A stretch of 42,656 nt of DNA, taken from IMG/VR virus record IMGVR_UViG_3300022934_000050, positions 1-42,656 of that record. The stretch is one strand, 5' to 3'. Position numbers and translations under genes: made by a program. This document shows, in pieces, positions 522-41,807 of the stretch; within the stretch, counting starts at the first letter, position 1, and every line of letters begins with the position of its first letter. The notes below the pieces were generated by a model, which was given only the letters and a program-made list of their open reading frames with translations, was not told the origin of the DNA and searched no databases. This DNA comes from a virus.

Positions 522-793
522 TGCCTGAACCCGTTAAATCAGTTCTTGAATCTCTAGCCAAGTCCGCGCCTTCGCTGACAGGCTACGTGTTGCTCACCAG
601 CCTGTTCCTTTGGCACATTAATTCCATGGCAAATCGAGACGACTTAGTCGCGAAGCAGAGGATCGATGCGTGCCACAACATCAAGGAGACATCGAACAAG
701 GTCATGGAAGATCTGCGAGAGGCAATGCAGCTACAGGCCATCGCCTTTAATGAATTGAGCGTACGCTTGGAACAGTCGATGAAGGATGACTAA
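521..793 (+). CDS. small membrane protein with C-terminal coiled coil, 90 aa
   Basis: One transmembrane segment (about residues 18-34, LTGYVLLTSLFLWHI) is followed by a charged alpha-helical region likely to form a coiled coil (residues 45-90). No family was recognised. Short phage proteins with one N-terminal anchor and a periplasmic coiled coil are typical of inner-membrane spanins and some holins. The adjacent lipoprotein gene makes a lysis role plausible (inference). The start ATG shares a base with the stop of the lipoprotein gene, and its own stop overlaps the next ATG by 8 bases. The rightward genes here form a tightly packed operon. No endolysin is recognisable nearby. Confidence 0.65.
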   Translation: MPEPVKSVLESLAKSAPSLTGYVLLTSLFLWHINSMANRDDLVAKQRIDACHNIKETSNKVMEDLREAMQLQAIAFNELSVRLEQSMKDD

Positions 794-1802
794 ACCAATA
801 CTGACTTTCCGAGCCAGGCTAGATGGAAAGTCTAGCTACTTCTTTCACGCGGTCAACATTTTGCGGTGGTTTGACCGCGAGCACTTTTGCCAGGTCTTGC
901 CCGTGGTGATCGAGCCCGGCGCCATCCCTAAGCCCTTGGCCGAGATGATAGTCCACCGGGACCAGCCGACAAATAAAGAAGTTGTAATCCATGACCCGAC
1001 GTTCGATCCGGTTGGGGAGTCGGACAAAAAGGTTTGTTTCGTTACCATGTGGGAGACTACCCGGCTCCCTGAACCCGCCGTCAAAAACCTAAACAAGGCG
1101 GAAGTGGTTGTGGTACCCTCGAAGTGGCAAGCGGAAGTCTTTTCGGCTCAGGGGGTGACGGCTCCTATTCGGGTTGTCCCCATGGGTGTAGATCCGAAAC
1201 GCTTTCCCTTCCAATACCGTGAGCATCGGGGGCCTTTCGTTTTTGGGTCCGCGGGGAATTTAGCAGTAGGAGGTTGCCGTAAGAACATGCCGGGAGTCAT
1301 CCAAGCGTTCCAAAAAGCCGATATTCCGAACTCGAAGCTGGTCATTAAGACCTACCCCGACGATGTCTTGCCGGAGATCGAAGACTCTAGGATTGAATTC
1401 CAGCAGGTTTTCTTGAGCTCTGCGGAGATCTCTAGCTTTTATGGTCGCATTGATTGCTTCGTTTCCGCGACCCGGGGCGAGGGCTGGGGCTTGATGCAAC
1501 ACGAGGCGATGCTTTCCGGCGTTCCGGTCGTTTCGCCAGCTTTCGGCGGGATCTCGGAGTTTTTTGACGCCTCTGTCGGATACCCGGTTGACTACCGGAC
1601 CGTCGAATCTGGTAAGCATTACGAAAACTGCGGCCATTGGGCCGAACCTTCGACAGAGAGCCTCATTAAAGGGATGAAGGCCGCGGTTGGTTTTGAGATG
1701 CACGCCCAGGTCCGAGCGGCCCGGGAACGCGTTGAGGGGCTCACCTGGGGGCATTCAAACACCCTCCTGTTGGAAGTATTAAGGGAGTTCGCCTATGTCT
1801 GA
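786..1802 (+). CDS. glycosyltransferase family 4 (GT-B fold), 338 aa
   Basis: The protein matches group 1/GT4 glycosyltransferases, which transfer a sugar from a nucleotide-sugar donor. Visible marks are a Rossmann-type N-terminal half with VVVPSKWQAEVF and VVPMGVDPKRF (residues about 105-140), a conserved FVFGSAGNL segment opening the C-terminal domain, and the donor-binding GEGWGLMQHEAMLSGVPVV block with the EX7E motif near residue 235. No membrane segment or signal is seen. The gene overlaps both neighbours by 8 bases. It sits between putative lysis/lipoprotein genes and the tail nozzle gene, so it is probably expressed late. It may glycosylate a virion protein or a host surface glycan (inference). 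It could act with the second glycosyltransferase at 30481-31797. Confidence 0.88.
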   Translation: MTKPILTFRARLDGKSSYFFHAVNILRWFDREHFCQVLPVVIEPGAIPKPLAEMIVHRDQPTNKEVVIHDPTFDPVGESDKKVCFVTMWETTRLPEPAVKNLNKAEVVVVPSKWQAEVFSAQGVTAPIRVVPMGVDPKRFPFQYREHRGPFVFGSAGNLAVGGCRKNMPGVIQAFQKADIPNSKLVIKTYPDDVLPEIEDSRIEFQQVFLSSAEISSFYGRIDCFVSATRGEGWGLMQHEAMLSGVPVVSPAFGGISEFFDASVGYPVDYRTVESGKHYENCGHWAEPSTESLIKGMKAAVGFEMHAQVRAARERVEGLTWGHSNTLLLEVLREFAYV

Positions 1803-11400: not shown

Positions 11401-13700
11401 TCAACGCTTTTTTCGGGGCTGCAAGTAACAATACGCCGAATAAAATGTTCACCGAAACGATGAACACGGGGGAACCCGGCGGGGGCGGGTTGATTAGGTC
11501 ACTCCGTATAGATCGGCTGCACTCGATCAGGAGCACGCCCGCTAAGAATTGGCACTTTGACTACGAAAAGCAACGAATGAACCTGCGGCGGAAGCCTGAG
11601 AAAGAGTCCGCCAACACGCAGCGCGGGAAAACTACCCTTCCGACTTACGCCAAATTCAAGAAAACCGTCCTCGATAAGGACTCAAAGCGGGCCGTCTCGG
11701 TTCTTGATTTGGGCGCTGGTCAGGGCCACGGCTCGGCGGGGATGCGGGGCGCAGCGGTAACGAACGACGGCACAGACCTTTCGATCTTTGGTAAACCAGG
11801 TAAGAATCGCCGGACCATCAAGACTATGGAGCCTTTCCCTTACGGAAGTAAGGGTACCAACCCATCTAACTGGCAAGACGGTAAGCGCCCCGACTTCCTG
11901 ACTCATGAAGAAGTAACCGGGCAGTTTGACTACGTCTCGTCATTCAGCGTTTTGAATGTCTTGCGCGAGCCGTTGCGAAAGCAACTCTACAGCACCGCGG
12001 GCAGGTCTCTGAAAATGGGGGGCGAAGCTCATCTCACCGCTAGATCGGATATTTCCGCTACGAACAAAAAGCCCGGGGCCAAGGAAGGCTGGATGGTCAA
12101 GCAACAGGACGGGTCTTGGGCTTTTCAGATCGGCCTGTCGGCTGACCAAATGATTGCGGAAGCTAAAGAAGTATTGGGGGGAACTGATTACAGCTTTGAA
12201 AAAGGAAAGGACCTCAGCGGCTCCTACATCGTAATCAAGCGTACAAGAGCCAACGCTTCCTACGCCCCGCCAACCAAGCCGACTTTGACCGCGAAAAAGG
12301 CCACGGCCAAACGGCCAGGCGCAACGGTTACGCGAATTAGCAAGGTCAAAACTTGGGACGGCCAGGCCCGAACGTCCGACACGGGCGCCCCTCGATTCAA
12401 ATCACCCATTCAAGAATCTGCCACAGGGTTTGATGTGTTTATTGCGGGCAAACCTAAAGACTCCCGGTCCCGGGTATATACCAAGCCTAACATTGAGCGG
12501 GGGCTCGCCTCGTTAGATAACGCCTTGAAGAAAGTCGCACGGGACCCAGTCCGCATGGCCTCTCCGACGGGCTACCTTGAATTCATGGCTGACGCGGGCA
12601 TTGGCGGCAACGTGTTGGCCCCGCCCTCGATGCTTTCATTGATTTTGAAAAACCCCGCCGCTTACGTTGACCTTGTCACAGGAGGCTACCACGGGTCTCG
12701 AACGGCCCCGGGAACGCGTCAATCAGCGCTTGAGGGGCTAGATTCCACTCTAAAAATGCGGGAGGTTATCGGGGACGCGCCCCCACCGTTCGTCGCAGCT
12801 TTGCACCATCTTTGGGGGGTGTTATCCCGCCGACTTGCTCCCGTAGATCAAGAAGGACTGTGGCTTCGATTGGTCAACCACAAGCCCATCTTGGACGCGA
12901 TCCAATCGTCCATAGACGGGAACTACACCCTGAGTTCGAAAGAGTGGTCCTCATTAGTTTCGGCCGCCCGGGCCGCGAGTGAGAGTAGCGCGGGCAAGCT
13001 TGGCAACGGCGGGACCTCGAACGCCAACGCCATGCACAACCCTCTGAGACGCCTCAATGGAGATTGGGAGAAGTATGCGGACATCTATTCCGCCGACAAA
13101 TCTTCAGGCGACTCGGGCCGAGCCTATTGGAAACTTGTTACAGACGTGGGCGCCTTAGAAATTAAAAACAAAGTACAGCGTTTTGTGGGCCTGACTTTCG
13201 GGACCCCGGGCCTGATCATGGATCGCTGGAAGTTTGTTGAAATGCATCTCCCCACGTTGATGAAACGCTACCGGGTCAACCAACCCGGGGACCTGTTTCA
13301 GTATTCCGAGCAAAACGTCCCCTCTGACCCGTCCGGCATCTACGGGACTTTTGGGGACATCGACAACGCTGCCTCGGCCTTCTCAACCGCTTTTTACGAG
13401 GGGACTGAGATGGCCTTGGAACAAGCCATCGCAAACAGCCCCGAGCTACAGCAATTGTTGGGAGCCCATGCCAACGTGGGAGGCCTACATTGGATGGGCT
13501 GGAACGCGATTAAAAATGAAGCGGTGGGTCATTCAAGTTTGAACCTCACGCACGACCTGGTAAAATCGTTGGGTCGCGATAACATTACCGCGGACACTAT
13601 CCACCAGCATATCCAAAATGGAACCTATTACACAGAGGGAAACCAAGGAAACCAGCGACGACGACTCACCATTGATCGGGGGCGTGTTTACTCCGAGTAA
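8427..13700 (+). CDS. giant polyvalent internal virion protein, 1757 aa
   Basis: This is by far the largest gene, in the usual place for a podovirus ejection protein carrying several domains. The N-terminus has two copies of a LPxGLRFxDPxE(I/L) peptide (residues about 5-45). Gly/Ala-rich, probably membrane-active segments follow (about 270-470). Near residue 556 MHEVGEALW resembles a zinc-peptidase HExxH helix but has Glu where the second His should be, so it may be degenerate. Residues about 1090-1200 contain SVLDLGAGQGHG and a downstream FDYVSSFSVLNVL, the pattern of a SAM-dependent methyltransferase domain. The C-terminal 400 residues are unassigned and helical. Such multi-domain proteins are injected into the host with the genome (family knowledge). 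Activity of each domain is unproven. Confidence 0.75.
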   Translation: MATPLPPGLRFVDPSEIAGGGNEPNEESEAPSLPKGLRFIDPAELSAYLPTDETTAPPQSTRDPIADVSSIADKMANPNYKPSFAEWKRYRESEDVIPENGDSLSERFSGIIGETLGYVKNLARATAGEIGETTINASQGDWAGAAENLETLLTSYTEAMLRGTMDLGIMSRSIHEAYGRGKTKKPAIQGFLGADSLTKIDPAELEQLKEKKLRTQYDLEMVNRQVQAIREAARSGDTNLLEFLSGNAPIDSINNDIGEGGSYFLDFPSLVSGGAAMAPKLLNRAASRVLQEGAEATLKGTTRAGAVAEELLEEARQRPLISALSAGAASAKMPDVAAAAATSAATVKTLHEVAEAAAGVASGLKKQPSDVGIFERFAGDAANELWKRRIAQGLTNLGADRLARPVGTLAAGAGLGGGVGAAFGGLAGGLEGMVEGLAEGIVTGGASASAIGAGRGLTGVSRKAMEDNDINSLRAAIAADPLAPSAKFDKLDRATQLQMATVAAANPEVQIRFVPEETLKAQLLSDQQHGQAFYDPRSKSIWVNADSPNLKQDFMHEVGEALWASPAINKADMAQEFERLYGRQGLRELGRELIRKDTKHGVTGKMLSDESVEALLDQKLLAEPEFILREVFAETFMDLTVDQAFSKVRRGRGFGNTLDRYSFESPLLRAGIKAKADILSRLGFDVSDTGDLRLTERDTQFGDVRLKNDFRLRKAVRKYMADVKNYYGDEAKALKRHSGGSRVALQDLAKAPYAGWVARADGSFENDFAVLKNGIVTAKDGAEIDAALKKRQADLSSVIGQTITGDPRTRLGDGQQVIDLAGPLKDPSDPALGLRLDSSGKRVFISGSVLPEQIFNLSSLSVEARSNLRDLQVAINTGDVFSGWYQAIGTSRGKELSWRRSTQKNLGDLRVSQKQFKPFAFSLSKEGNLSTTVLDVGAAFEKMRRWKNNGKLNDLWGGNLRAFREDLFQYLDNHGHGLPGDSSIGAAKRDQINAFFGAASNNTPNKMFTETMNTGEPGGGGLIRSLRIDRLHSIRSTPAKNWHFDYEKQRMNLRRKPEKESANTQRGKTTLPTYAKFKKTVLDKDSKRAVSVLDLGAGQGHGSAGMRGAAVTNDGTDLSIFGKPGKNRRTIKTMEPFPYGSKGTNPSNWQDGKRPDFLTHEEVTGQFDYVSSFSVLNVLREPLRKQLYSTAGRSLKMGGEAHLTARSDISATNKKPGAKEGWMVKQQDGSWAFQIGLSADQMIAEAKEVLGGTDYSFEKGKDLSGSYIVIKRTRANASYAPPTKPTLTAKKATAKRPGATVTRISKVKTWDGQARTSDTGAPRFKSPIQESATGFDVFIAGKPKDSRSRVYTKPNIERGLASLDNALKKVARDPVRMASPTGYLEFMADAGIGGNVLAPPSMLSLILKNPAAYVDLVTGGYHGSRTAPGTRQSALEGLDSTLKMREVIGDAPPPFVAALHHLWGVLSRRLAPVDQEGLWLRLVNHKPILDAIQSSIDGNYTLSSKEWSSLVSAARAASESSAGKLGNGGTSNANAMHNPLRRLNGDWEKYADIYSADKSSGDSGRAYWKLVTDVGALEIKNKVQRFVGLTFGTPGLIMDRWKFVEMHLPTLMKRYRVNQPGDLFQYSEQNVPSDPSGIYGTFGDIDNAASAFSTAFYEGTEMALEQAIANSPELQQLLGAHANVGGLHWMGWNAIKNEAVGHSSLNLTHDLVKSLGRDNITADTIHQHIQNGTYYTEGNQGNQRRRLTIDRGRVYSE

Positions 13701-25408: not shown

Positions 25409-26158
25409 TTAAGCCGAGAAGGAGATTGCGTGGTCAAACGTGGCTTGTAGGGCCATGGTGCGTTCCGGCGCCACGGCCAAGGAGTTGCTTTTACCGACCT
25501 CAGTAAAAGCGTTAAACAGTGACCACGCGTTCCGGTCTCGGAATTCGGGGTGCCGCGGGTCACGGTATTCTTTGATGACCTGCCCAAGCTGCGAGGCCGT
25601 GCAGGCGCCCCGCTCAAATGAGCGGACCATCAGGTCGTTTGCCTGCCCTCGGCTCAACCCAAAGTCCTTGTAAGTATCAAACCGCCGATCCTGGACTTCC
25701 AAGGCGCCCGGGGCCTTAGCGACGGCCTCTCGAACAAGCTGCGGGAGTGCTCCCTCAACGTGGGCCGTATGTTTCCGCGAGATCTTGATCTCGCCCATGA
25801 AAGAAAGGTTGTCGCAGACAAACACCTGCGAGCCGAGGACGAGCCCGGCCGAAACGCTCTTATCGTGAGAGTTTCGCACGCCAACGATGGTCTCGTAGTC
25901 GTCACGATCCCCGCAGGGACCCGCGGGCCGACTGTAGGAGAGGAGCCCGAAATATCGGTTCCCCTCATGGCTCAGGCCGTGGGCAGCGTCTTTCAAATTA
26001 AACCCAAGTCGGGTCATCTCAGCCCCGACGAGGCTGAGAACCTCCGAGTGAGGGACCGGGACATGAGAGTGGGTCCTGTTGGGTGTTTGGACGTTCAAAA
26101 CGTCGTCGTAGCTCGCGTGGTGGGCTCCGCAGTGGAGTATCAGATTGTCTTTGATCAT
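25409..26158 (-). CDS. DUF932-like phage protein, 249 aa
   Basis: The core IVGVRNSHDKSVSAGLVLGSQVFVCDNLSF (residues about 90-120) is characteristic of DUF932 / phage-plasmid-like proteins, which are common in mobile elements and of unknown biochemical role. The flanking regions are consistent in length (about 250-330 aa in the family). It is the second gene of the leftward operon. Its ATG at 26158 follows AGGAATAAAATT, a leader duplicated before the first gene (26430-26455), so the two genes share a translation-initiation region. Confidence 0.75.
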   Translation of the reverse strand: MIKDNLILHCGAHHASYDDVLNVQTPNRTHSHVPVPHSEVLSLVGAEMTRLGFNLKDAAHGLSHEGNRYFGLLSYSRPAGPCGDRDDYETIVGVRNSHDKSVSAGLVLGSQVFVCDNLSFMGEIKISRKHTAHVEGALPQLVREAVAKAPGALEVQDRRFDTYKDFGLSRGQANDLMVRSFERGACTASQLGQVIKEYRDPRHPEFRDRNAWSLFNAFTEVGKSNSLAVAPERTMALQATFDHAISFSA

Positions 26159-26181
26159 AATTTTATTCCTAAGTTCGGATT
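26156..26181 (-). repeat. leader repeat copy 1 (before DUF932-like gene)
   Basis: 25 of 26 bases are identical to 26430-26455, each including a leftward ATG and the AGGAATAAAATT ribosome-site region. This is a duplicated translation-initiation leader. Immediately beyond it lie two TTCAGGG units (26181-26194). Confidence 0.8.
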
Positions 26182-26201: not shown

Positions 26202-26432
26202 TTACTTGGAGGACGGGTCAATGTGGTAGTCAACCCAGCAGAAGCGGGTTGAGTCCCATGCGGGACGGTAGACCACGTATCCAGTGCCGTAGCGGCCCTT
26301 GTAAGTTTTGCGGATCCCTTCAGGGTTTTTGCGGGAAACGTAGCCCCGGCAACGGGCTGAGTGGGAGAGGGGATAGTTGGTTTCCTCGGGCAAAAAGAAG
26401 GGCGAGTCCCCTACAGACGAAGCATTCAGCAT
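26202..26432 (-). CDS. first gene of the leftward operon, small basic protein, 76 aa
   Basis: This is a short protein rich in Tyr, Arg and Pro (RKNPEGIRKTYKGRYGTGYV and VDYHIDPSSK), without recognised motif. It starts with ATG 26432 after the same AGGAATAAAATT leader as the DUF932-like gene, which argues that it is a real gene and the first one expressed leftward. Small, basic, first-expressed phage proteins are often host-takeover or regulatory factors (general knowledge; not shown here). Confidence 0.6.
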   Translation of the reverse strand: MLNASSVGDSPFFLPEETNYPLSHSARCRGYVSRKNPEGIRKTYKGRYGTGYVVYRPAWDSTRFCWVDYHIDPSSK

Positions 26433-26455
26433 AATTTTATTCCTAAGATCGGATT
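26430..26455 (-). repeat. leader repeat copy 2 (before first leftward gene)
   Basis: Second copy of the leader described at 26156-26181. The only difference is one T/A change after the shared CCTAAG. A duplicated leader can give two early proteins the same expression level. Confidence 0.8.
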
Positions 26456-26970: not shown

Positions 26971-26988
26971 AACAGTCACAACAGTCAC
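26971..26988 (+). repeat. tandem AACAGTCAC repeat
   Basis: Two perfect tandem copies of AACAGTCAC. A third copy lies at 26790-26798, so the AT-rich tract is flanked on both sides by the same word. Confidence 0.7.
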
Positions 26989-27008
26989 TCGGGGTTTCTG
27001 GGTCCCGG

Positions 27009-27057
27009 GTCCGCTCGGGGCTCTTGGTCCCTGGTTCGCTTGGGGCTCTTGGTCCCT
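27009..27057 (+). repeat. two 24-base direct repeats
   Basis: 27009-27032 and 27034-27057 share 22 of 24 bases (core GGGGCTCTTGGTCCCT), spaced by one base and running directly into the TTCAGGG array. Confidence 0.75.
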
Positions 27058-27161
27058 TCAGGGTTCAGGGTTCGGGGTTCAGGGTTCAGGGTTCAGGGTT
27101 CAGGGTTCAGGGTTCAGGGTTCAGGGTTCAGGGTTCAGGGTTCAGGGTTCAGGGTTCAGGG
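27057..27161 (+). repeat. TTCAGGG tandem array, 15 units (telomere-like, iteron-like)
   Basis: Fifteen head-to-tail 7-base units, all TTCAGGG except the third (TTCGGGG). It is G-rich on one strand and resembles telomere-type repeats in form. The array lies 110 bases from the AT-rich tract and 70 bases before the triple helix-turn-helix gene. It may be an iteron array bound by an initiator. A reading frame through it is open only because 7 x 3 bases repeat as 7 residues. Confidence 0.9.
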
Positions 27162-27183
27162 TGAAAACCCAGTTTTACCTAGA

Positions 27184-27212
27184 TTGAACAAGATTGACTT
27201 AGATTTAACAAG
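27184..27212 (+). promoter_or_regulatory. 29-bp conserved intergenic element, copy 1
   Basis: 28 of 29 bases match the reverse complement of 36461-36489. Internally it has two similar halves (TTGAACAAGATT and TTTAACAAG) around GACTTAG, i.e. a direct repeat spaced about two helix turns apart. It overlaps the candidate promoter before the first rightward gene. Confidence 0.75.
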
Positions 27213-27222
27213 TTTGCATACT
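27194..27222 (+). promoter_or_regulatory. candidate promoter for the rightward operon
   Basis: TTGACT (27194-27199), exact 17-base spacing, CATACT (27217-27222). The predicted start of transcription is at about 27229, essentially at the ATG of the next gene (27230), and no ribosome site is visible. The mRNA could be leaderless, or the real start may lie further inside the gene. Confidence 0.55.
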
Positions 27223-27229
27223 GCGGCCC

Positions 27230-28222
27230 ATGAAGATGAAGCCTCCCCGCACTGGAGCGCATAAACCTGCCCCCGTGAAGGCCTCAGAGCCCTCAATTCC
27301 GGTGAGCTCGGAAATCGCCTCAGAAGCCCCTGTGGCCGCGCTTCTTTCTGAGGGGCTAAATCATACCCCCCAAGCCCAAAACGCAGCCACAGAGCCCGCT
27401 AGGGACCTTAAACGCGGATCTGACGGGAGATACCGAGATGAGAAGGGCCACGCGGTGCCTTTTGAGGAGGCCGAGCCTGAAAAGTATGCTCAGATTGTGG
27501 AGTTGATGCGGCAGGGCCACAATAATCAGGAGTTAACGGCCGCGGTCGAGGGGCTCAAGATCGGCACCATAAGTCGGATTCGACGTAAGGAGGGGATTCC
27601 TGCCCCGGGCAACCTGGGGCGCAATTTACCCCAAAAGCTGGAGCAAAGTTCCCCTGAAGAGTTCCAGCAAGTCGTTGAACTTCTGAAAGACGGCAAGACG
27701 CACAAAGAGATCACCGCCGAGATGGGGGTCTGCGGCAAAGTCATTTCTCGGATCTATCACACTTACAAGCAAGAGTATGGCTTCCCAGACCACAAGACCA
27801 TGACCATCGAAGAGCGGGACCCTGAGAAGTTCAATCAGATCTGCATGGCGTTCACCGCGGGATACACTCCCGAAATGATCAGCGAGCGGTTTAAGATATC
27901 TGCGGACACGGCCCGGCGCATACGCGCCACTCATGGCCATAAGTTTCCCGAATGGCAGACCGCAGCGGCTTGTTCTCTCAAGCATCTCTCGCTCCAATTG
28001 GCCCGCTCTCTGAGCGAGGATGTGGAGCAAGATAGACTCTCTCCCAACTCGAAGGCCTTTGCCATCTCTGTGATGGCAGAAAAATCCATGTTGTTGCAGG
28101 GACAGGCCACATCGATCACTGAGACCGTCAATTCGTCCCGTGTTACCACCGTCAATGATGCCCTTAAATCTTTGGATGTCATTGATGCTGAGGTAGTTAC
28201 AGAGGAAAAAATCGAGAACTAA
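27230..28222 (+). CDS. triple helix-turn-helix DNA-binding protein (small terminase candidate), 330 aa
   Basis: After a Pro/Ala-rich N-terminal linker (1-65), three related units of about 45 residues follow: PEKYAQIVELMRQGH...ISRIRRKEG, PEEFQQVVELLKDGK...ISRIYHTYKQ and PEKFNQICMAFTAGY...ARRIRATHG. Each has a helix-turn-helix pattern (about residues 80-220). The C-terminal 100 residues are helical with a V(N/T)TV..ALKSLDVIDAEVV tail. HTH plus an oligomerising helix fits small terminase subunits, but the gene is about 4 kb from the large terminase and next to the repeat array, so an origin-binding or regulatory protein is equally possible. It is the first rightward gene. Confidence 0.7.
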   Translation: MKMKPPRTGAHKPAPVKASEPSIPVSSEIASEAPVAALLSEGLNHTPQAQNAATEPARDLKRGSDGRYRDEKGHAVPFEEAEPEKYAQIVELMRQGHNNQELTAAVEGLKIGTISRIRRKEGIPAPGNLGRNLPQKLEQSSPEEFQQVVELLKDGKTHKEITAEMGVCGKVISRIYHTYKQEYGFPDHKTMTIEERDPEKFNQICMAFTAGYTPEMISERFKISADTARRIRATHGHKFPEWQTAAACSLKHLSLQLARSLSEDVEQDRLSPNSKAFAISVMAEKSMLLQGQATSITETVNSSRVTTVNDALKSLDVIDAEVVTEEKIEN

Positions 28223-28465
28223 ATATAACAGATATTGTGCGAAGATGCCCTTTTACTTCTATTGCAAAGTTCTCTGTATCAGGGAGTTGTGACGACGTTT
28301 GAAAAACCCTAAACTCGAGCCGTTTGCAATTAGGACGTAAATTTGGGGGGATCAGGCCCCGGCGAAGGGTGGTCGGACCCCGGGGGGGCGGGGGGTCAAC
28401 TCGGGAGATTCCGCGAAAGTTGAACGCATTGGGGCGAAGAAAAAATTTTTTCAGTAGGCTTACTT
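28223..28465. other. non-coding gap with G-rich and palindromic elements
   Basis: No convincing gene is seen in these 243 bases. They contain four G-runs (six G at 28345-28350, GGG, seven G at 28382-28388, six G at 28390-28395), enough for a G-quadruplex. A GACCCC/GGGGTC hairpin lies at 28376-28397 and a perfect 14-base palindrome GAAAAAATTTTTTC at 28439-28452. One TACTTCT word is at 28254. The site might be a packaging signal or a control site for the cassette that follows (inference). Confidence 0.5.
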
Positions 28466-28687
28466 ATGGACAAAAAATCCAAATCAAAAAAACCCACTAC
28501 TTCTACTCGAGTTTTCCTGCGGAACCCGCAAGAACGACGGCCAGAGCTTTGGCTAACCTCGAACGGATATTGCGTGGTCCCCTCGGGGACGGCCCCGCAC
28601 GCTGAACTAGTGGACCGAGAAGTATATGTCCGCCCTAGAAAAGATGATCCCCGGGTAGCTTGGGAATTTGTATCCTTCGTCGAATGA
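28466..28687 (+). CDS. small basic protein, 73 aa
   Basis: A Lys/Ser/Thr-rich N-terminus (MDKKSKSKKPTTSTRV) leads to a small beta-rich domain (FLRNPQERRPELWLTSNGYCV, then EVYVRPRKDDPRVAWEFVSFVE). The stop overlaps the radical SAM start (ATGA), so it is the first gene of the glycan/sulfate cassette. It may be the protein partner or substrate of the following enzymes, since peptide-modifying radical SAM enzymes are often preceded by a short substrate gene. This is a hypothesis; no leader-peptide motif is recognised. Confidence 0.6.
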   Translation: MDKKSKSKKPTTSTRVFLRNPQERRPELWLTSNGYCVVPSGTAPHAELVDREVYVRPRKDDPRVAWEFVSFVE

Positions 28688-29874
28688 CCTCAAATTTCAC
28701 AACGCCGTGGTTGGACATCATTTATCAAGCCCAGCCTACTTGTAAAACGGTAGAGCTTCGCGTGGGGCCGTTTCTACATCGATTTTCTCCCCAACAGGGG
28801 GGGCATCGGTTGGAATGCGTGACCCTTCCCCGAACTGGGAAATTTGAGTGGAGCTTGAAAGCGGACGGGCCCTTGGAGATTGTGTCCCTGAACTGCCGAC
28901 CCAGTAAGGGAGAATTTCACCCACTGGTCCACAACCCCGGGGCGTTGGCTCAGTCAAAGAGCCTCGCTGAGTTCTCCCCCGTCACGGTCCAGTGGTTTGT
29001 CACTTGGAAGTGCAACTACAAGTGCGAATACTGCTGGCAGGAAACCGTGGCGGACGTTTACCGAAAGCACGGGCACGCGGACGTCTCAGCGGAGCGTTGG
29101 GTTGAGGCGATTGGGGGCTTGGCCCCTTCCAAGATCTCGTTGACTGGCGGGGAACCAACCGTTCACCCTCAGATCTTGGAATTGGTCTCGGGGCTCGGGG
29201 CGATTGCTCCCGTATACATTACTTCTAACTTGGGAAAGAGCTTTGATGTGGACGGTTGGATCTCCCGGGTATCTCCCGAGCGCTTAGAGTCCTTGATGCT
29301 ATCCTTTCACCCTACCCAGGTATCTTGGGAAGATTTTGAGGCTAAATGGCGCCGTTTGTCGGGGCATTATTCGGGGAAAAAAGTGGGCATCGAGTTGGTG
29401 CAGTATCCTAAGAACGTGCCCTATACTGAGCGAGTGCTGCGCCTGGCGGACGAGTTAGGGACCCGGTCGCGAAATATCGACCCGTATCACGAGCAGCCCC
29501 CGACAAAAAGGGAGGCCCCCGGGGACGGTCCATGTGACATCAGCCCTGACTTTCGGACCCAAGAAAAGCCAGAGCTATCCGAGAGGCCAGAGACCGCGCC
29601 TCGGTATTGCTTGGCAGGGATGCGGCGGGTCAACATTGATCCCTTGGGGGACGTCTACACCTGTATGTCTGCCGTGGACCGATCAAAACTGTGGGGCCAA
29701 AACGCCTTGGGGCATTACAAGCCCTTGGGCAACATACTAGAGCCCGGGTTTAAATTGAACGATGAGCCAACGCTTTGCTGGGAGACTTTCCGGTGCTCGG
29801 GGTGTGATGTCCACGAGGTCGCAAGTAGTTGGGTTGATCACGGGTCGAACTTAAAACTACCCTTACCAGAATGA
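28684..29874 (+). CDS. radical SAM enzyme with SPASM-like C-terminal Cys cluster, 396 aa
   Basis: The radical SAM motif CNYKCEYC (Cx3Cx2C, residues about 112-119) is followed by ISLTGGEPTVHP, the SAM-binding GGE segment. Near the C-terminus CLAGMRRVNIDPLGDVYTC and CWETFRCSGC carry extra Cys residues as in SPASM/twitch domains that hold auxiliary iron-sulfur clusters. The first 95 residues form an unassigned beta-rich domain. Such enzymes modify peptides or small molecules by radical chemistry. ATG 28684 overlaps the previous stop (ATGA), preferred over an upstream start at 28660. It is coupled to a sulfotransferase gene (ATGA). A radical SAM enzyme is unusual between phage packaging genes. 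Confidence 0.88.
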   Translation: MTSNFTTPWLDIIYQAQPTCKTVELRVGPFLHRFSPQQGGHRLECVTLPRTGKFEWSLKADGPLEIVSLNCRPSKGEFHPLVHNPGALAQSKSLAEFSPVTVQWFVTWKCNYKCEYCWQETVADVYRKHGHADVSAERWVEAIGGLAPSKISLTGGEPTVHPQILELVSGLGAIAPVYITSNLGKSFDVDGWISRVSPERLESLMLSFHPTQVSWEDFEAKWRRLSGHYSGKKVGIELVQYPKNVPYTERVLRLADELGTRSRNIDPYHEQPPTKREAPGDGPCDISPDFRTQEKPELSERPETAPRYCLAGMRRVNIDPLGDVYTCMSAVDRSKLWGQNALGHYKPLGNILEPGFKLNDEPTLCWETFRCSGCDVHEVASSWVDHGSNLKLPLPE

Positions 29875-30488
29875 GCTACGACTTTGAAACGGGGACCTTG
29901 TTTATTCAAATTCCCAAGACCGGTTGCATGGCCATAAACCAGTCGCGAAGGTCACCGTATACTTCTGGGGAGATCAACCATTTTGTTTTGGCTCATTGGG
30001 AAAAACTCTTGGGGAAATCCCCTGAGCGAGTGTTCGCGGTATGGCGGGACCCTATCGAGCGCTTTAGATCGGCCTACGCGTTCCAGTCAACGAAACCGAA
30101 AGGGTTTTATTCGGGAGTGACGGGCGAGCGAGTGGCCCCGTTGTTATTTGAGCAACGAGAGATCGCTTTAGGCGGGACCGTGACCGATTGGATTGAATGG
30201 CTATTGGAAGACAAAAGCCCGCGCAATCGTTTTGGCGATAACGCCTTGTATTGGCCCCAGAAACATTTCCTCGAAGGAGAAGCTAAAGTAGAGCTACTTC
30301 GATTTGAGAAACTCGACGAAGAGTATCCCCGGCTTGTTCGAGAACTTGGACTAGACCGATACCGGTTACCGCTCCACAAGATAAACGTGACGGGGCACCC
30401 TAAACCGATCCTGACGGCGCGGGATGAAGCGCTTTTGCGGGAGATTTACGCGGAAGACTTTGAGCCCCAAGAGTTTTACTATGATTGA
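29871..30488 (+). CDS. sulfotransferase family protein, 205 aa
   Basis: The 5'-phosphosulfate-binding motif IQIPKTGCMAI (residues about 11-21) and the 3'-phosphate-binding motif FAVWRDPIERFRSAY (about 55-69) are the hallmarks of PAPS-dependent sulfotransferases. The compact length fits the Sulfotransfer_2 type that acts on carbohydrates. A downstream helix FLEGEAKVELLRFEKLDEEYPR is also typical. It would transfer sulfate from host PAPS to a sugar or protein. It is coupled by overlaps to the radical SAM gene upstream (4 bases) and the glycosyltransferase downstream (8 bases), so the three proteins are probably made together and act in one modification route. Confidence 0.85.
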   Translation: MSYDFETGTLFIQIPKTGCMAINQSRRSPYTSGEINHFVLAHWEKLLGKSPERVFAVWRDPIERFRSAYAFQSTKPKGFYSGVTGERVAPLLFEQREIALGGTVTDWIEWLLEDKSPRNRFGDNALYWPQKHFLEGEAKVELLRFEKLDEEYPRLVRELGLDRYRLPLHKINVTGHPKPILTARDEALLREIYAEDFEPQEFYYD

Positions 30489-31797
30489 GAAGAAGATTGT
30501 TTTTGCTTTTGGGGAATTGAACGATCAACCGTTGCCCGCGGAGTTCGAAAAGAACTTGAACGATTTCAAGCGCTTACATCCCGGCTGGAAAGTGGACCTC
30601 TTGTCCGTTGACGACGGGCCGGAAGAGTTCAAAGAAGTATTCCACTATTCAAAGATCTTGTGGGCGCAGTTGATTCGGTTTTACCATGTTTATGAGTATG
30701 GGGGCTTCTACGCTGACTTGGACATTGATTTTTTCAAGCCTCTCCCGTGCCCGGGGGACTCGGATCTTGTGATCGCTATCGAGCTACATAAGTCAGCGAC
30801 AGATGCCTTTTTTGGAGCTACCCCAAAGCATCCGGTGATAAAGACGGTCCTAGACCGCGTGAAAAAGTGGTCGTTCGGGAAGCTACGGCGGAAAGAGACC
30901 CTTCGTTCCATCGGGGTCCTTGACAAGGCGAGCGTTGGCGTGTTTACGAACACCATACTTGAGATGACGTCTTTAGACCTCACCTACGATAAGCAAGTTC
31001 ACATGTCAGAAAAAGAGTTCGGCGGGGTGCTCCATCCAGAGCAAGGTGTAGGGATACTTCCTTTTGAGGCGTTGTGCCGACACAGTAAAGACAACTGGTT
31101 CGGGCATCACAGGTGCTTTGGAACCTGGCGCCCCAAAGAAGCGGATGGGACGGTTGACATGGCCGAGGATTCTTTTTTGCCAGTCAACACGTTCGCCAGG
31201 ACAAGCCAATTTGGACAAGATGAATTTGCTTGGCGTCTTCTGGGCCAGATAAGTGAGGGGACCTTCTTGGACATAGGCGCGGGGTTCCCGGTCCAGTGGT
31301 CAAATTCCTGCGCGTTGGAACGCCTTGGGTGGTCGGGGCGATGTATCGACCGACAAGGGGACGTGGGCGCGTGGAACGCGGAGCGAAAAACGCCTTTGAC
31401 CGTCGCGGACGCGACACAGATTGACTACGGCGCCTTGATTGAGGGACTGCCCCCGGTGATCGATTACTTGAGTTTAGACGTTGACGATGCCACGACCGCG
31501 GCGTTGGAGCGGTTACTCGATACCGTTCAAAACCACCGGTTTCGCGTGATAACGATTGAGCACGACCGTTACCGTTTAGGGGACGGCCCGCGGGACCAGC
31601 AAAGACGGCTATTGATGGGGGCGGGATATCAATTGGTCGGGGCCGATATGTTCCCGAACCTGAAACACCAGGGAATTGTGTGGGAGGATTGGTATGTTGA
31701 CCCGGGGCTAGTTGATATTGGCGTGTGCTCTACTTTTTTTGGGATGCGGAATGTCAACCGAATTTTAGAAGTATTAAGGAAACAACAGCGTGTCTAA
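30481..31797 (+). CDS. glycosyltransferase fused to FkbM-like methyltransferase, 438 aa
   Basis: ATG 30481 overlaps the sulfotransferase stop. The N-terminal half has FYHVYEYGGFYADLDIDFF with the DxD sugar-donor motif (about residues 68-85), the signature of Gly_transf_sug (GT32-like, capsule/mannosyl type) enzymes. The C-terminal half starts SQFGQDEFAWRLL and has FLDIGAGFPVQWSNS (SAM-binding glycine loop), DYLSLDVDD and RVITIEHDRYR, the order seen in FkbM-type methyltransferases that methylate sugar hydroxyls. A single protein adding a sugar and methylating it is thus inferred. No membrane segment is seen. It is part of the cassette with radical SAM and sulfotransferase. Confidence 0.85.
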   Translation: MIEKKIVFAFGELNDQPLPAEFEKNLNDFKRLHPGWKVDLLSVDDGPEEFKEVFHYSKILWAQLIRFYHVYEYGGFYADLDIDFFKPLPCPGDSDLVIAIELHKSATDAFFGATPKHPVIKTVLDRVKKWSFGKLRRKETLRSIGVLDKASVGVFTNTILEMTSLDLTYDKQVHMSEKEFGGVLHPEQGVGILPFEALCRHSKDNWFGHHRCFGTWRPKEADGTVDMAEDSFLPVNTFARTSQFGQDEFAWRLLGQISEGTFLDIGAGFPVQWSNSCALERLGWSGRCIDRQGDVGAWNAERKTPLTVADATQIDYGALIEGLPPVIDYLSLDVDDATTAALERLLDTVQNHRFRVITIEHDRYRLGDGPRDQQRRLLMGAGYQLVGADMFPNLKHQGIVWEDWYVDPGLVDIGVCSTFFGMRNVNRILEVLRKQQRV

Positions 31798-32032
31798 GTT
31801 ACCAAAGCCTATTCCGGCGCGGGCCCTTTTGATGGGAAAGACTCCCGGGATTTATGTTGGGCTTGTTACCGACAAGGGAAAGACCGTTAGCATGTTCCAC
31901 AGAGAAATCGAGCCCGGGGTGTATGTCAAAAAACCCCGAAAAATATCCAACAAGAACTTCTACTTCTTAGATGGGCCTAATGCTAACAAAATCAATCCGA
32001 AAGACATTATATTCCGAGAAGAGGAAACTTAA
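31790..32032 (+). CDS. small hypothetical protein, 80 aa
   Basis: Basic protein with beta-rich character (GKTPGIYVGLVTDKGKTVSMF, EIEPGVYVKKPRKISNKNFYF). It starts with GTG overlapping the preceding stop by 8 bases, an overlap length used repeatedly in this operon. No family was recognised. It separates the sugar/sulfate cassette from the large terminase region. It could be a small partner of the cassette enzymes or belong to packaging. Confidence 0.6.
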   Translation: MSKLPKPIPARALLMGKTPGIYVGLVTDKGKTVSMFHREIEPGVYVKKPRKISNKNFYFLDGPNANKINPKDIIFREEET

Positions 32033-32231
32033 ACAGCGCCTTGCCGTGGGGGACTTGTTCACGTTATCAGAGGAGCCTTTGGAAGAGAGGCTTCGTCGGG
32101 TTGTCCACGCGATCAATAAGCGAAACCGCGGGGATGATTTGACTGAGGAGGAACTGGAGGGGCTTAGGTCTTGGGCATGTGAGCAAGCGGGGATTGATTT
32201 AACTGACTCTGTAAGTATAGAGGACTTGTAG
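31971..32231 (+). CDS. small helical protein upstream of terminase, 86 aa
   Basis: The C-terminal 65 residues look protein-like and mostly helical (EEPLEERLRRVVHAINKRN, LTEEELEGLRSWACEQAGIDL). The start is uncertain. ATG 31971 overlaps the previous gene by 62 bases, whereas an in-frame GTG at 32046 gives a 61-aa product without overlap but also without a clear ribosome site. Its stop shares one base with the terminase GTG at 32231, supporting coupled expression. Function unknown; a packaging accessory role is possible from position. Confidence 0.55.
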   Translation: MGLMLTKSIRKTLYSEKRKLKQRLAVGDLFTLSEEPLEERLRRVVHAINKRNRGDDLTEEELEGLRSWACEQAGIDLTDSVSIEDL

Positions 32232-33928
32232 TGGGAGAAGAGACTCAGAAAAGCGACGTGAATCAGGAGATCGCGGCCTTTGCCGCGGAGGTGAAGGCGC
32301 GTTCACCACATCCGGTATTGAACACGCCCACGCGGGAGCAGATGGAGAAGCTGTTGAAGCTCAAGGGCGCGGAAGCCGTCCGAGATCTTTTGCGGGAGTG
32401 GGTCCAAGCGGCCCAGAACATGATCGACTACCCGTTGAAGTATGGATACGAGCCGCAAAATTGGAAAGACGCTGATAGATTGCTCGAGAGCGCTAAAGTG
32501 CTTTTCATGGGCGGGGGCAATCGTGCAGGAAAGACGAGATACTGCGCCAAAAAGATCATGGAATGGGCTTTGCAGAAACCCAATTCTCGTTGGCTCTGTA
32601 TGCATGAATCGAACGATTCGTCCATTGCCGTGCAACAGAAAAATATTTACGAGATGGTCCCTCCTGAGTTTCGCAACTTGAAACGGAGTCGGATCGTCGC
32701 GATGCACTACACTCAGAAGAACGGGTTCGCAGATAACACGCTGGTATTGCCGAACGGCGCACAAATTTTCTTTCGAAACTTCACTCAAAAGATTGAGATT
32801 ATCCAGGGGGATGAGTTCGACGGGGCCTGGCTTGATGAGTGCTTTCCACTCTCTTGGCTTAACGAAGTATCGTTCCGTCTACTCACGCGGAAAGGACAAC
32901 TACTTCTGTCAGTGACTCCGATCCTGGGGTATACCCCAGCGCTTGCTGAGGTCCTTGATGGGCTGACCATTGACGAGTGGCGGGACGCGGAGCTTTTGTC
33001 GGAGAACGTGAACGTGCCGGGAGGAGAGAAGGGCAAAATGCCTTATATCGGGTCGGGCTCAAAAGGAACGCGGGCGATCTTTTTTCACTCGGACATGAAC
33101 AAGTTCAGTCCGTGGGACGAGATGAAAAGGGAGTTGGAGGGGAGGACGAAAGAGGACATCATGATCCGAGCCTATGGCTGGGTCCAGCAGTTGTCGGTCG
33201 GGAACTTCCCCAAGTTCGGGAGCCATAATATAGCGGACCCCGACGACATTCCGAAAGAAGGGACCAACTACATGATCTTGGACCCCGCGGGCGCCCGCAA
33301 CTGGTATATGCTTTGGGCGCGGGTCTGCCCCGATGGGTTGGTCTGGGTTTACCGCGAATGGCCCGACTTTAAAACTATGGGGGAATGGGCCTTACCGGAC
33401 AAGGTCAAGCTGGACGGGAAACGGGGCCCCGCTCAGACGAACGGTGCGGGCCGCGGGGTGCTTGCTTATCGCCGATTGATAGAAAAACTGGAGCGGGGAG
33501 AAGAAGTATTCAAGCGGGGAATTGATCCCCGGGCGGGTAAGGCCGCTAGCGCGGCTCTGAAAGCTCGGGCCGAGAGTTTGATAAACACTTTGAAGAGCCC
33601 GTTGAAAAACGATCTCGGAGAGGTCCTCGAGCCCGGGCTCCTGTTTACCCCGGCGCCGGGATCGCACATTGAAGAGGGCCTGACGGCCATCAATAACCTG
33701 CTTGATTTTAACGCTGACGAGCCGTGGTCTTTTTACAATCAGCCGCGGTTGCGGATCTCAAAAGAATGCCGGAACCTCACCTGGTGTATGTCGAATTGGC
33801 AAAACGCGGACCCCGCGGACCATTCAGCCTCTAAAGATCCCGTAGACGCGTTGCGCTACCTAGCATTGATGCAACCGGTTTACGTGGACCGGAAGAAGAG
33901 TTTCTCGACTCGGGGAGGGAGTTATTGA
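32231..33928 (+). CDS. terL: terminase large subunit, 565 aa
   Basis: ATPase-nuclease that packages DNA into the procapsid through the portal. The Walker A-type P-loop GGGNRAGKT is at residues 94-102, Walker B DGAWLDE at about 197-203 and a coupling SVTPI strand at about residue 227. The C-terminal nuclease half begins YMILDPAGARNWYMLWARV, containing a conserved Asp, and ends with SASKDPVDALRYL, typical of large terminases. It uses a GTG start directly after the preceding stop. The gene is followed by a small HTH protein and the portal, the usual packaging order. Other cues give no clear headful or cos class. Confidence 0.92.
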   Translation: MGEETQKSDVNQEIAAFAAEVKARSPHPVLNTPTREQMEKLLKLKGAEAVRDLLREWVQAAQNMIDYPLKYGYEPQNWKDADRLLESAKVLFMGGGNRAGKTRYCAKKIMEWALQKPNSRWLCMHESNDSSIAVQQKNIYEMVPPEFRNLKRSRIVAMHYTQKNGFADNTLVLPNGAQIFFRNFTQKIEIIQGDEFDGAWLDECFPLSWLNEVSFRLLTRKGQLLLSVTPILGYTPALAEVLDGLTIDEWRDAELLSENVNVPGGEKGKMPYIGSGSKGTRAIFFHSDMNKFSPWDEMKRELEGRTKEDIMIRAYGWVQQLSVGNFPKFGSHNIADPDDIPKEGTNYMILDPAGARNWYMLWARVCPDGLVWVYREWPDFKTMGEWALPDKVKLDGKRGPAQTNGAGRGVLAYRRLIEKLERGEEVFKRGIDPRAGKAASAALKARAESLINTLKSPLKNDLGEVLEPGLLFTPAPGSHIEEGLTAINNLLDFNADEPWSFYNQPRLRISKECRNLTWCMSNWQNADPADHSASKDPVDALRYLALMQPVYVDRKKSFSTRGGSY

Positions 33929-36216: not shown

Positions 36217-36459
36217 ATGAGTGATAAAGCGCAATCTCTTAAGCCCTTGAGGGAGGCCATGGCGGCGGAACCGCATTCTCTGACTCGGGAGGCTCTCAAA
36301 GATTTGTTGGAATCAACGCTCAGGGCCGAGTGCCGGGCCTGTTGTAGGGCGGAAGCGGCCGACCGGGACTTGTATGCTGGAAGTATTGGAGTGCTGCGGC
36401 GAATCTTAGACGCTCTTGAGAAATGCGCGGAGGAGTCAAAGGTGATTAAACTAGGGTAA
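36217..36459 (+). CDS. small helical Cys-rich protein, 80 aa
   Basis: Helical and charged, with CRACCRAEAADRD in the middle and CAEE near the end (four Cys in total). No family was recognised. It lies five bases after the portal stop and before a 124-base gap containing the second copy of the 29-bp element. A head-assembly accessory role is possible from position. Confidence 0.6.
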   Translation: MSDKAQSLKPLREAMAAEPHSLTREALKDLLESTLRAECRACCRAEAADRDLYAGSIGVLRRILDALEKCAEESKVIKLG

Positions 36460-36460
36460 T

Positions 36461-36489
36461 CTTGTTAAAACTAAGTCAATCTTGTTCAA
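36461..36489 (-). promoter_or_regulatory. 29-bp conserved intergenic element, copy 2 (inverted)
   Basis: Reverse-complement match to 27184-27212 with one mismatch (28/29). It lies in the only sizeable gap of the structural operon, directly before the scaffold and capsid genes. On the rightward strand it reads as AATCTTGTT twice, about 20 bases apart. It may bind a phage regulator controlling capsid expression (inference). Confidence 0.75.
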
Positions 36490-36583
36490 ACCGGGTTTTT
36501 ACTTGTTTTCATTCTAAGACTCCCTGATACTTTTTATTCATTCATAGGGTCACCCTATGCTGCTTACTGACAAAGCCTAAAAT

Positions 36584-40256: not shown

Positions 40257-41807
40257 ATGGCTACTTCTACAATTCGACCTTCCGCCGTGGGCACGGTGAC
40301 CGCTTTCCGAGCGGGGGACCTTATTTTGCTCCCTAACGCAACCAGTGGGCTGCGGGTGATAACTAAGGAGAACTTCAACACAGAGCTTGCCGCCCTGTCA
40401 CGGGCGACCCCGAACGACGGCCTGGCAACTTTGAATTCCAGCGGCAAGCATGACATTGCCCAAGTGAACTATACTTCTTTGGACTTCCAAGGGACGTCTA
40501 CTGTTGCCGGGCTCCCGGCCCCGGGGACTCTGGCATCGGGACAATTCTATATCGTAACCGACACGGGAACCAACCACAGTGAGACCTGGACCCAAGCCGG
40601 GGAGATGGCGATTTCTGATGGGACGAGCTACTATGTTGGTCCTGTAGGTATTACTACTGTTGCACAGGGTGGGACTGGTTCAGGAACTGCCGCTGGTGCG
40701 CGGACGAATCTCGATGTGATGCAAGTTGCCGATGTCAACGATCGATCCCTCAGTAAGGCAGCCATTAATGGTCTTAGCCTTGATGGGGTCGATGACCTAA
40801 TAACTCTGACCCCTCACGCCATCACTACAAACGATTTCTCCTGGTCCGGGATTATTCGGGTTGATACGGAGCCCTCAATCAATGATATGGTCGCGCAGAC
40901 CAGAGGTTCAGGAGGTGTCGGGGTCTCGGTGTACTTCACATCAGCCTACCGACTTGTCGCGAAGTTGAATGATGGGGCCGGGAATGTTGATACTATCACA
41001 AGCGGGTCTACTTACGCCGTGTCCGGGAAAGCCTACCACTGGGCCGTGACTGTTGACCGTGATGGTGCCTTTAACATGTATGTCAACGGCGAAGTGGCAG
41101 CGACGACCACCACCACTGCTGTTGATACTGGCCTGGATACTGGTAACGATATTGTCCTCGGGAGCCGTAATGGAGCAGAGTTCTTTGAGGGGGTTATGTA
41201 TTCCTTCGTTGCATGGGACAAGGCCCTAAGCGCAAGCGAAGTAGCAGAGCTTGTTGCGAACGGAAATCAAGTTCCCCTAGCAGATCAATGGAGCGGCGCT
41301 GTCGCTTCCTACCAGTCACGCAATATCGAGTCTGATACCTGGCTGGACGAGAGCAGCAATGATTCCAATGGGGACATAGCAGGAGCGACTCGACTTTTTG
41401 AGCCAAAGGCACAAGTATCCGGGACTTTTACACCAACACTTTATTTCGGTGGGGTCTTACAATCGCCGGGTGTAGCTTCTGGATTTTGGCACAAGGATTC
41501 GGTGAACCCTAAGATTGTCCACATCACAATCAGGATCGAATCTCCCGCCGCCGTTTCTGACTCCGGCAACGCCGTGATTCAGGGACTTCCTTTTAATTCA
41601 GTGAACGATTCAACGAAGCGGTTTTGCTTCTCCGCAATCATGTTCAACGCTTTGGCATTAACGTCAAGCGTGTCAGCGTTAGTGCTCGCCAATACTGACG
41701 ACATTAACTTGTATGACACTGGAGCGACCGGGGCTGTCGCGCTTACAAACTCCAATTTTACAACCTCAACACTCTTGACGATCAACGGCTTTTACGAAAT
41801 CGAATAA
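40257..41807 (+). CDS. tail fibre or appendage with LamG-like domain, 516 aa
   Basis: The N-terminal 150 residues have phage-fibre character (PNATSGLRVITKENFNTELA, and ITTVAQGGTGSGTAAGARTNL, a motif repeatedly seen at fibre-to-tail joins). Residues about 165-340 form a concanavalin-like (LamG) beta-sandwich: LDGVDDLITLTPHAI, FSWSGIIRV, YHWAVTVDRDGAFNMYVNGE and FEGVMYSFVAWDKALSASEV. LamG domains bind glycans, so this is a good receptor-binding candidate. The C-terminal 160 residues form another beta domain. Confidence 0.8.
   Translation: MATSTIRPSAVGTVTAFRAGDLILLPNATSGLRVITKENFNTELAALSRATPNDGLATLNSSGKHDIAQVNYTSLDFQGTSTVAGLPAPGTLASGQFYIVTDTGTNHSETWTQAGEMAISDGTSYYVGPVGITTVAQGGTGSGTAAGARTNLDVMQVADVNDRSLSKAAINGLSLDGVDDLITLTPHAITTNDFSWSGIIRVDTEPSINDMVAQTRGSGGVGVSVYFTSAYRLVAKLNDGAGNVDTITSGSTYAVSGKAYHWAVTVDRDGAFNMYVNGEVAATTTTTAVDTGLDTGNDIVLGSRNGAEFFEGVMYSFVAWDKALSASEVAELVANGNQVPLADQWSGAVASYQSRNIESDTWLDESSNDSNGDIAGATRLFEPKAQVSGTFTPTLYFGGVLQSPGVASGFWHKDSVNPKIVHITIRIESPAAVSDSGNAVIQGLPFNSVNDSTKRFCFSAIMFNALALTSSVSALVLANTDDINLYDTGATGAVALTNSNFTTSTLLTINGFYEIE

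Follow-up and report, generated by a model that had tools for sequence, protein, structure and literature searches.

A predicted glycan-tailoring cassette with a Twitch-type radical SAM enzyme ahead of the terminase gene of a tailed phage

Glycan modification by phages is known. In marine pelagimyophages, glycosyltransferases and radical S-adenosylmethionine (SAM) cassettes are found in the host-recognition region and were read as O-chain modification (PMC7029224), and one of the marine T4-like genomes carries 12 radical SAM genes (PMC5332604). Virion glycosylation clusters of mycobacteriophages are described in the passages of PMC10955285 and PMC12363180 that cite Freeman et al. 2023. At the enzyme level, BtrN shows the four-cysteine Twitch arrangement (PMC9012708). 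Herein, IMG/VR record IMGVR_UViG_3300022934_000050 was analyzed over its whole length of 42,656 bases (the window, to which all coordinates refer). A cassette of four tightly overlapping genes was located at 28466-31797, ahead of the terminase large subunit gene (terL). It encodes a 73-aa basic protein, a radical SAM enzyme, a sulfotransferase-like protein, and a glycosyltransferase fused to an FkbM-like methyltransferase (GT-MT). These genes probably, at about 0.72, serve a tailed phage as a modular glycan-tailoring cassette that works in the cytosol. The gene content, the intact catalytic motifs, a conserved locus with swapped tailoring enzymes, and a constant sugar-gene neighbourhood are the basis of this conclusion. 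The literature searched holds no phage in which radical SAM chemistry and sulfation are combined in such a compact cluster. An earlier reading made from the sequence alone (the sequence-only reading) had stated that no phage system with this set was described; for the full set, the statement agrees with the literature searched, but less specific combinations of glycosyltransferase and radical SAM cassettes were already reported from marine phages (PMC7029224).

The gene neighbourhood was compared across the radical SAM family, which has ten viral members: the window, L280, L093, L094, L179, L174 (the same as L286), L181, L284, L287, and L288. The labels from L009 and L055 to L288 denote contigs or loci fetched as relatives for comparison. 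In 10/10 viral members, the radical SAM gene has a predicted carbohydrate gene beside it or one gene away, a count that carries no background rate of glycosyltransferase neighbours. The neighbours are the sulfotransferase and the GT-MT in the window and a glycosyltransferase (GT) in L280. In L174/L286 they are a sulfotransferase, a mannosyltransferase-like GT, a UDP-sugar dehydrogenase, and a GT4 enzyme; in L181, a CMP-sugar synthetase, a GT29 sialyltransferase, a CAP59 GT, and a GT4 enzyme. A nucleotide-sugar transferase (PF03407) is the neighbour in L093, L094, and L179, the last assigned by 48% identity to the L093 gene. L284 has GT9, GT4, and GDP-mannose dehydratase genes, and L287 has a CAP59-like GT, a methyltransferase, a GT4 enzyme, and a UDP-glucose dehydrogenase; L288 was assigned from the gene order that it shares with L287. 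The GT4 genes of L174, L181, L284, and L287 share phrog_2170 with a GT4 gene located elsewhere in the window (786-1802). Similarly, phrog_3347 is common to the sulfotransferases of the window and L174, whose radical SAM genes are on distant branches. Judged from gene order, these neighbourhoods strongly support a predicted role in sugar modification, as first proposed.

The neighbourhoods also bear on a different target, a DNA-linked group; here the enzymes would act on a modified base in the DNA of the phage itself. Phage DNA can serve as a substrate for glycosyltransferases of phages (PMC7029224). However, no base-hypermodification gene is present in the cassette or in its counterparts in the relatives, where polysaccharide and nucleotide-sugar genes are found, and DNA as a target is not suggested by the late-operon location. 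This proposal of the sequence-only reading thus received no specific support and is very improbable.

The same locus is present in L280, a 4.2-kb contig with the C-terminal 230 aa of a radical SAM protein, a 282-aa gene, a GT, a small open reading frame (ORF), and terL. The identity between L280 and the window is 55% for the radical SAM protein, 51% for the GT, and 61% for terL. The 80-aa protein that follows the cassette in the window is related to L280 ORF 2305-2595, with a local score of 88 compared with at most 44 in 500 shuffles. The L280 GT is 254 aa long without a methyltransferase domain, and the 282-aa gene stands where the window has the sulfotransferase. A relative of the 282-aa gene, 37-39% identical, is next to the L093 radical SAM gene. 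L280 keeps the locus, the order, and the core enzymes while the tailoring enzymes are exchanged, which supports a modular cassette. A chance origin of the cassette is ruled out by the conserved gene order. The search for the same gene order in other phages was successful in part: L280 has the radical SAM gene, one gene, the GT, a small protein, and terL, but not the sulfotransferase or the methyltransferase domain. The 282-aa protein was also considered as a fucosyltransferase from a by-eye resemblance (GLGSQ, RDTD, EDIYLM); library and PDB searches gave no support, and the protein was left without an assignment.

The radical SAM enzyme matches Pfam Radical_SAM (PF04055) with E 2.6e-7 (31.4 bits, cut-off 29.5) and carries C110-x3-C114-x2-C117 (CX3CX2C) and GGEP at 155, which places it in the radical SAM superfamily. 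The SPASM motif has seven cysteines, CX9-15GX4C-gap-CX2CX5CX3C-gap-C, and Twitch has the first four, CX9-15GX4C-gap-CX2C (PMC6231123). In the window enzyme, the Twitch pattern is present as C309-x12-G322-x4-C327 ... C371-x2-C374, and all four cysteines are invariant in the family. Only five conserved C-terminal cysteines are found, in the order C365-x5-C371-x2-C374, instead of the seven of SPASM, and the Pfam SPASM match is not significant (E 0.19). C110, C114, C117, C309, G322, C327, C365, C371, and C374 are invariant or nearly so in the alignment of the ten viral members; L280 is without C110, C114, and C117 only because its contig begins partway through the coding sequence. From these motifs, the enzyme is best described as a Twitch type with one predicted auxiliary cluster. 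The original assignment as a radical SAM/SPASM enzyme is kept for radical SAM and replaced by Twitch for SPASM.

The AlphaFold2 (AF2) model of the enzyme has an N-terminal seven-strand all-beta domain followed by the radical SAM core. When this model was compared with the PDB by Foldseek, SpeY was the first match, followed by SkfB, anSME, PqqE, BlsE, SuiB, MoaA, and AbmM. SpeY is a Twitch dehydrogenase, and BlsE and AbmM act in the biosynthesis of sugar-containing antibiotics. These modelled fold matches fit a Twitch enzyme and would be compatible with sugar or peptide substrates alike. The radical SAM proteins of L284, L287, and L288 have an extra N-terminal 120-145 aa (approximately) ahead of the shared beta domain. 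We also weighed whether the enzyme could be viperin-like, or could modify nucleotides in some other way, and have no link to the sugar genes, since NCBIfam viperin_w_prok matches the radical SAM core with E 3.4e-10 and solved viperins were matched in a profile search. The score is 39.5 bits compared with a cut-off of 180, the match covers only the initial part of the core, and the ten members of the family share Twitch cysteines, an additional N-terminal domain, and carbohydrate-gene company. The viperin explanation is accordingly judged highly unlikely.

The 73-aa ORF lies immediately upstream of the radical SAM gene, with which it overlaps, and the sequence-only reading had raised its maturation as a modified peptide. 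In such a pathway for a ribosomally synthesized and post-translationally modified peptide (RiPP), the 73-aa precursor would be cross-linked by the radical SAM enzyme and sulfated or glycosylated by the other enzymes. The presence of SkfB, SuiB, PqqE, and anSME among the top fold matches is in favor of this pathway. However, Pfam, PHROG, and NCBIfam gave no match for the 73-aa protein, none of the fetched loci holds a relative of it, and the one indication that this putative gene is coding is its 4-bp overlap with the radical SAM gene. In the other family members, the upstream gene is a sulfotransferase, a GT29 gene, a GT, or an unrelated small protein, so that a conserved adjacent small ORF was not found. 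The RiPP recognition element (RRE) is described as having a helix bundle (PMC6231123), whereas the N-terminal domain in the moderate-confidence model has seven strands and no RRE-like helix bundle. All NCBIfam RiPP-maturase models are far below cut-off on the enzyme. Peptide maturation is not borne out by these results and is considered unlikely.

The two other enzymes have predicted roles in glycan tailoring. The putative sulfotransferase matches phrog_3347 with E 9.8e-8, and both motifs of the binding site for 3'-phosphoadenosine-5'-phosphosulfate (PAPS) are intact, IPKTG (5'-phosphosulfate-binding motif, 5'-PSB, residue 14) and RDPIERFRS (3'-phosphate-binding motif, 3'-PB, residue 59). Its match to Pfam Sulfotransfer_2 has E 0.0097 (16.5 bits, cut-off 22), and it is 29-30% identical to the sulfotransferase beside the L174 radical SAM gene, a homologue that is above the same cut-off. 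The GT domain matches Gly_transf_sug (PF04488) with E 2.8e-5 (25.1 bits, cut-off 23), and its DXD motif is intact at residues 79-81, with D79-L-D81 kept in L280. From about residue 236, the methyltransferase domain matches Methyltransf_21 (PF05050) below cut-off (E 0.0049, 17.4 bits, cut-off 22.7) and aligns along the domain with phage FkbM domains at 30-40% identity. Of the original assignments, the glycosyltransferase is confirmed, and the PAPS-type sulfotransferase and the FkbM-like methyltransferase are backed by these matches as predicted functions. No hydrophobic segment at the transmembrane level is present in the four cassette proteins or in the GT4 protein of the window, so the cassette enzymes are probably cytosolic.

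For the substrate, the step order, the radical reaction, the acceptor, and the benefit, we infer the following scheme. The glycosyltransferase would add a sugar from a host nucleotide-sugar onto an acceptor, either a glycan or a protein. After or before this transfer, the Twitch enzyme would change a sugar by hydrogen abstraction, most likely by a two-electron oxidation or an epimerisation if it works as sugar-acting Twitch/SPASM enzymes do. The FkbM domain would O-methylate, and the sulfotransferase would add sulfate with PAPS as the donor. A capped, charged sugar would result, and it may alter adsorption, superinfection, or recognition.

Several observations weigh against the glycan-tailoring cassette. 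The sulfotransferase stays below its Pfam cut-off, and its structure model is too poor to use (pLDDT 54.7). The radical SAM model is moderately confident (pLDDT 72.5, pTM 0.68), it superposes on solved radical SAM structures with low TM-scores (0.24-0.45), and three peptide-acting enzymes, SkfB, anSME, and PqqE, also rank high among its matches. Several relatives are in large genomes rich in glycan genes, in which some sugar neighbours are to be expected; together with the lack of a background rate, this makes the neighbourhood alone suggestive and not a statistical proof.

The capped sugar could be displayed on the virion or on a host surface glycan. The late-operon position in the window favors virion proteins as acceptors, and virion display is given close to an even chance. 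The other variant of the glycan-tailoring cassette is a modification of host surface polysaccharide or lipopolysaccharide (LPS) that blocks superinfection, as in serotype conversion. Serotype-converting phages have such cassettes near the integrase gene, and the radical SAM cassette of L093 and L094 is near a phage integrase gene (phrog_1), which favors a host-surface change. The glycosyltransferases of marine T4-like phages were also read as host-surface modifiers (PMC7029224). Against this variant, the window genes sit with late packaging genes, and the membrane-bound glycosyltransferase or flippase of classical gtr-type seroconversion was not found among the four cassette proteins or GT4. 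Display on the host surface is a serious possibility at less than even odds.

The features are listed in Table 1. Leftward replication genes (DNA polymerase, exonuclease, helicase) occupy 14.4-26 kb, and rightward packaging and virion genes run from 27.2 kb to the window end and continue from the window start. Because the window ends split the virion gene block, the record probably represents an almost complete genome whose ends fall between virion genes. The phage is tailed, and its genome is podovirus-sized. All four cassette ORFs were found with the short overlaps that had been noted: 4 bp for 73-aa/radical SAM, 4 bp for radical SAM/sulfotransferase, 8 bp for sulfotransferase/GT-MT, and 8 bp for GT-MT/80-aa ORF, assuming ATG starts at 28684 and 30481. 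The position before terL was also verified, with the correction that two small ORFs lie between the cassette and terL.

Table 1 Coordinates of the cassette, its borders, and the GT4 gene in the window.
Coordinates	Strand	Feature	Evidence
786..1802	+	GT4-type glycosyltransferase, possible second part of the same pathway	phrog_2170 E 6.9e-26
27230..28222	+	Helix-turn-helix (HTH) protein, probably terminase small subunit-like; upstream border of variable region	HTH_23 E 2.5e-9; C-terminal half related to ORFs of L055, L061, L065
28466..28687	+	73-aa basic protein; may belong to cassette	4-bp overlap
28684..29874	+	Radical SAM enzyme, N-terminal all-beta domain, Twitch-type C-terminal cysteines	Pfam Radical_SAM, family alignment, AF2 model, Foldseek
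29871..30488	+	PAPS-type sulfotransferase (Sulfotransfer_2 / phrog_3347)	phrog_3347, PAPS motifs, L174 homologue
30481..31797	+	Glycosyltransferase (Gly_transf_sug) fused to FkbM-like methyltransferase (GT-MT)	Pfam, L280 GT, phage FkbM alignments
31790..32032	+	80-aa protein between cassette and terL	Related L280 ORF
31971..32231	+	86-aa ORF preceding terL	ORF list
32231..33928	+	Terminase large subunit (terL), downstream border	Terminase_6N E 1.6e-7

The HTH relatives in L055, L061, and L065 are 1.1-2.5 kb upstream of terL, which indicates that the HTH-terL interval is a variable region. The window terL is 69% identical to that of L009. The cassette is absent from the related phage C75C1, and no cassette homologue was found at about 50 terminase-related loci with upstream sequence, in agreement with its description as inserted before terL. 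The third-position G+C of the three cassette enzymes (0.57-0.66) is like the rest of the genome, so the cassette is not obviously a recent foreign block.

A profile search found two full-length relatives of the radical SAM enzyme (45% and 43%), N-terminal domain included, and further members were reached with profiles made from relatives. A first scan of genome contigs gave nothing until such relative-built queries were used, and single-protein scans of viral contigs with the radical SAM and GT-MT proteins also gave nothing. Two contigs from GTDB metagenome-assembled genomes (MAGs) are viral: L173 (Rhodospirillaceae) is 100% identical to IMG/VR L179 over the shared stretch, and L174 (SAR202) is 99.99% identical to IMG/VR L286 over 11.2 kb. 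One bacterial MAG holds a distant copy of the gene (L175). Scans of the phyla of L175 (284 genomes) and L174 (301 genomes) matched only these two genomes. No close relative was found in 50,697 named phage genomes; by tblastn, the radical SAM and FkbM matches in named phages were only distant, and zero matches were obtained for the sulfotransferase, the L280 GT, the L174 radical SAM protein, and the 80-aa protein. In plasmids, the radical SAM matches were all distant, with PqqE and the mycofactocin maturase among them. The FkbM-domain relatives (L196-L275) have no linked sulfotransferase and no linked radical SAM gene of this family. By sequence comparison, this is a so far undescribed and largely viral radical SAM family. 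A separate viral contig, L169:571-9213, carries several different radical SAM genes outside this family plus a sulfotransferase gene (571-1203).

Other features of the window were recorded. The GT4 gene and the head-closure-like gene 1795-4002 share 8 bases, and in C75C1 no glycosyltransferase is annotated ahead of the head-closure-like gene. A 1,757-aa protein (8427-13700) has a weak match to a methyltransferase domain (Methyltransf_23 E 0.002, below cut-off, residues 1078-1184), and a tail-fibre-like protein (40257-41807) has a concanavalin A-like lectin domain (Laminin_G_3 E 2.5e-19). Between the divergent operons are a 31-nt direct repeat (90%) at 26151-26181 and 26425-26455, a 25-bp repeat at 26988-27057, and, just upstream of the HTH gene, 15 head-to-tail copies of the heptamer TTCAGGG at 27057-27162. 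A 39-nt inverted repeat pair, 87% complementary, is at 27177-27215 before the HTH gene and at 36458-36496 between the portal and scaffold genes, and both copies contain shorter internal repeats. A very G-rich run, GGGGGGGCGGGGGG, is found in the 243-bp intergenic region 28223-28465 ahead of the 73-aa ORF.

Ten viral lineages and one bacterial MAG, with no named phage among them, suggest that the radical SAM family points to unexplored sugar chemistry. It is tentatively proposed, at somewhat under even odds, that a largely virus-restricted radical SAM family acts on sugars, that phage glycans exist with an oxidised or epimerised sugar and sulfate and methyl caps, and that the terminase-side locus is a plug-in site at which related phages exchange tailoring enzymes. 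If the cassette acts on virions, phages could wear sulfated, methylated sugars; if it acts on hosts, it would represent a novel route by which infection alters the cell surface.

Among known systems, pelagimyophages share with the window phage-borne glycosyltransferases, and their radical SAM cassettes are in the same variable region as these; the comparison of the radical SAM genes is by description and not by family membership (PMC7029224). They differ as large T4-like myophages with no sulfotransferase reported, whereas the window cassette is compact, is before terL, and is in a podovirus-sized genome. Mycobacteriophage clusters, in the passages that cite Freeman et al. 2023, also have phage-encoded glycosyltransferases, which act on virion proteins, but no radical SAM or sulfotransferase is reported there. 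A prophage of the mycobacteriophage host group has a GT/methyltransferase cluster. The phrog_3347 family, matched by the window and L174 sulfotransferases, is annotated as Galactose-3-O-sulfotransferase, an annotation by similarity only. In BtrN and SpeY, the latter the top fold match, the radical SAM core is followed by four cysteines in the Twitch arrangement, as in the phage enzyme. BtrN has nearly the same cysteine spacing. BtrN and SpeY are antibiotic biosynthesis enzymes with no full-length sequence homology to the phage family, which, unlike them, carries a further beta domain at the N-terminus and, as a fifth invariant cysteine, C365.

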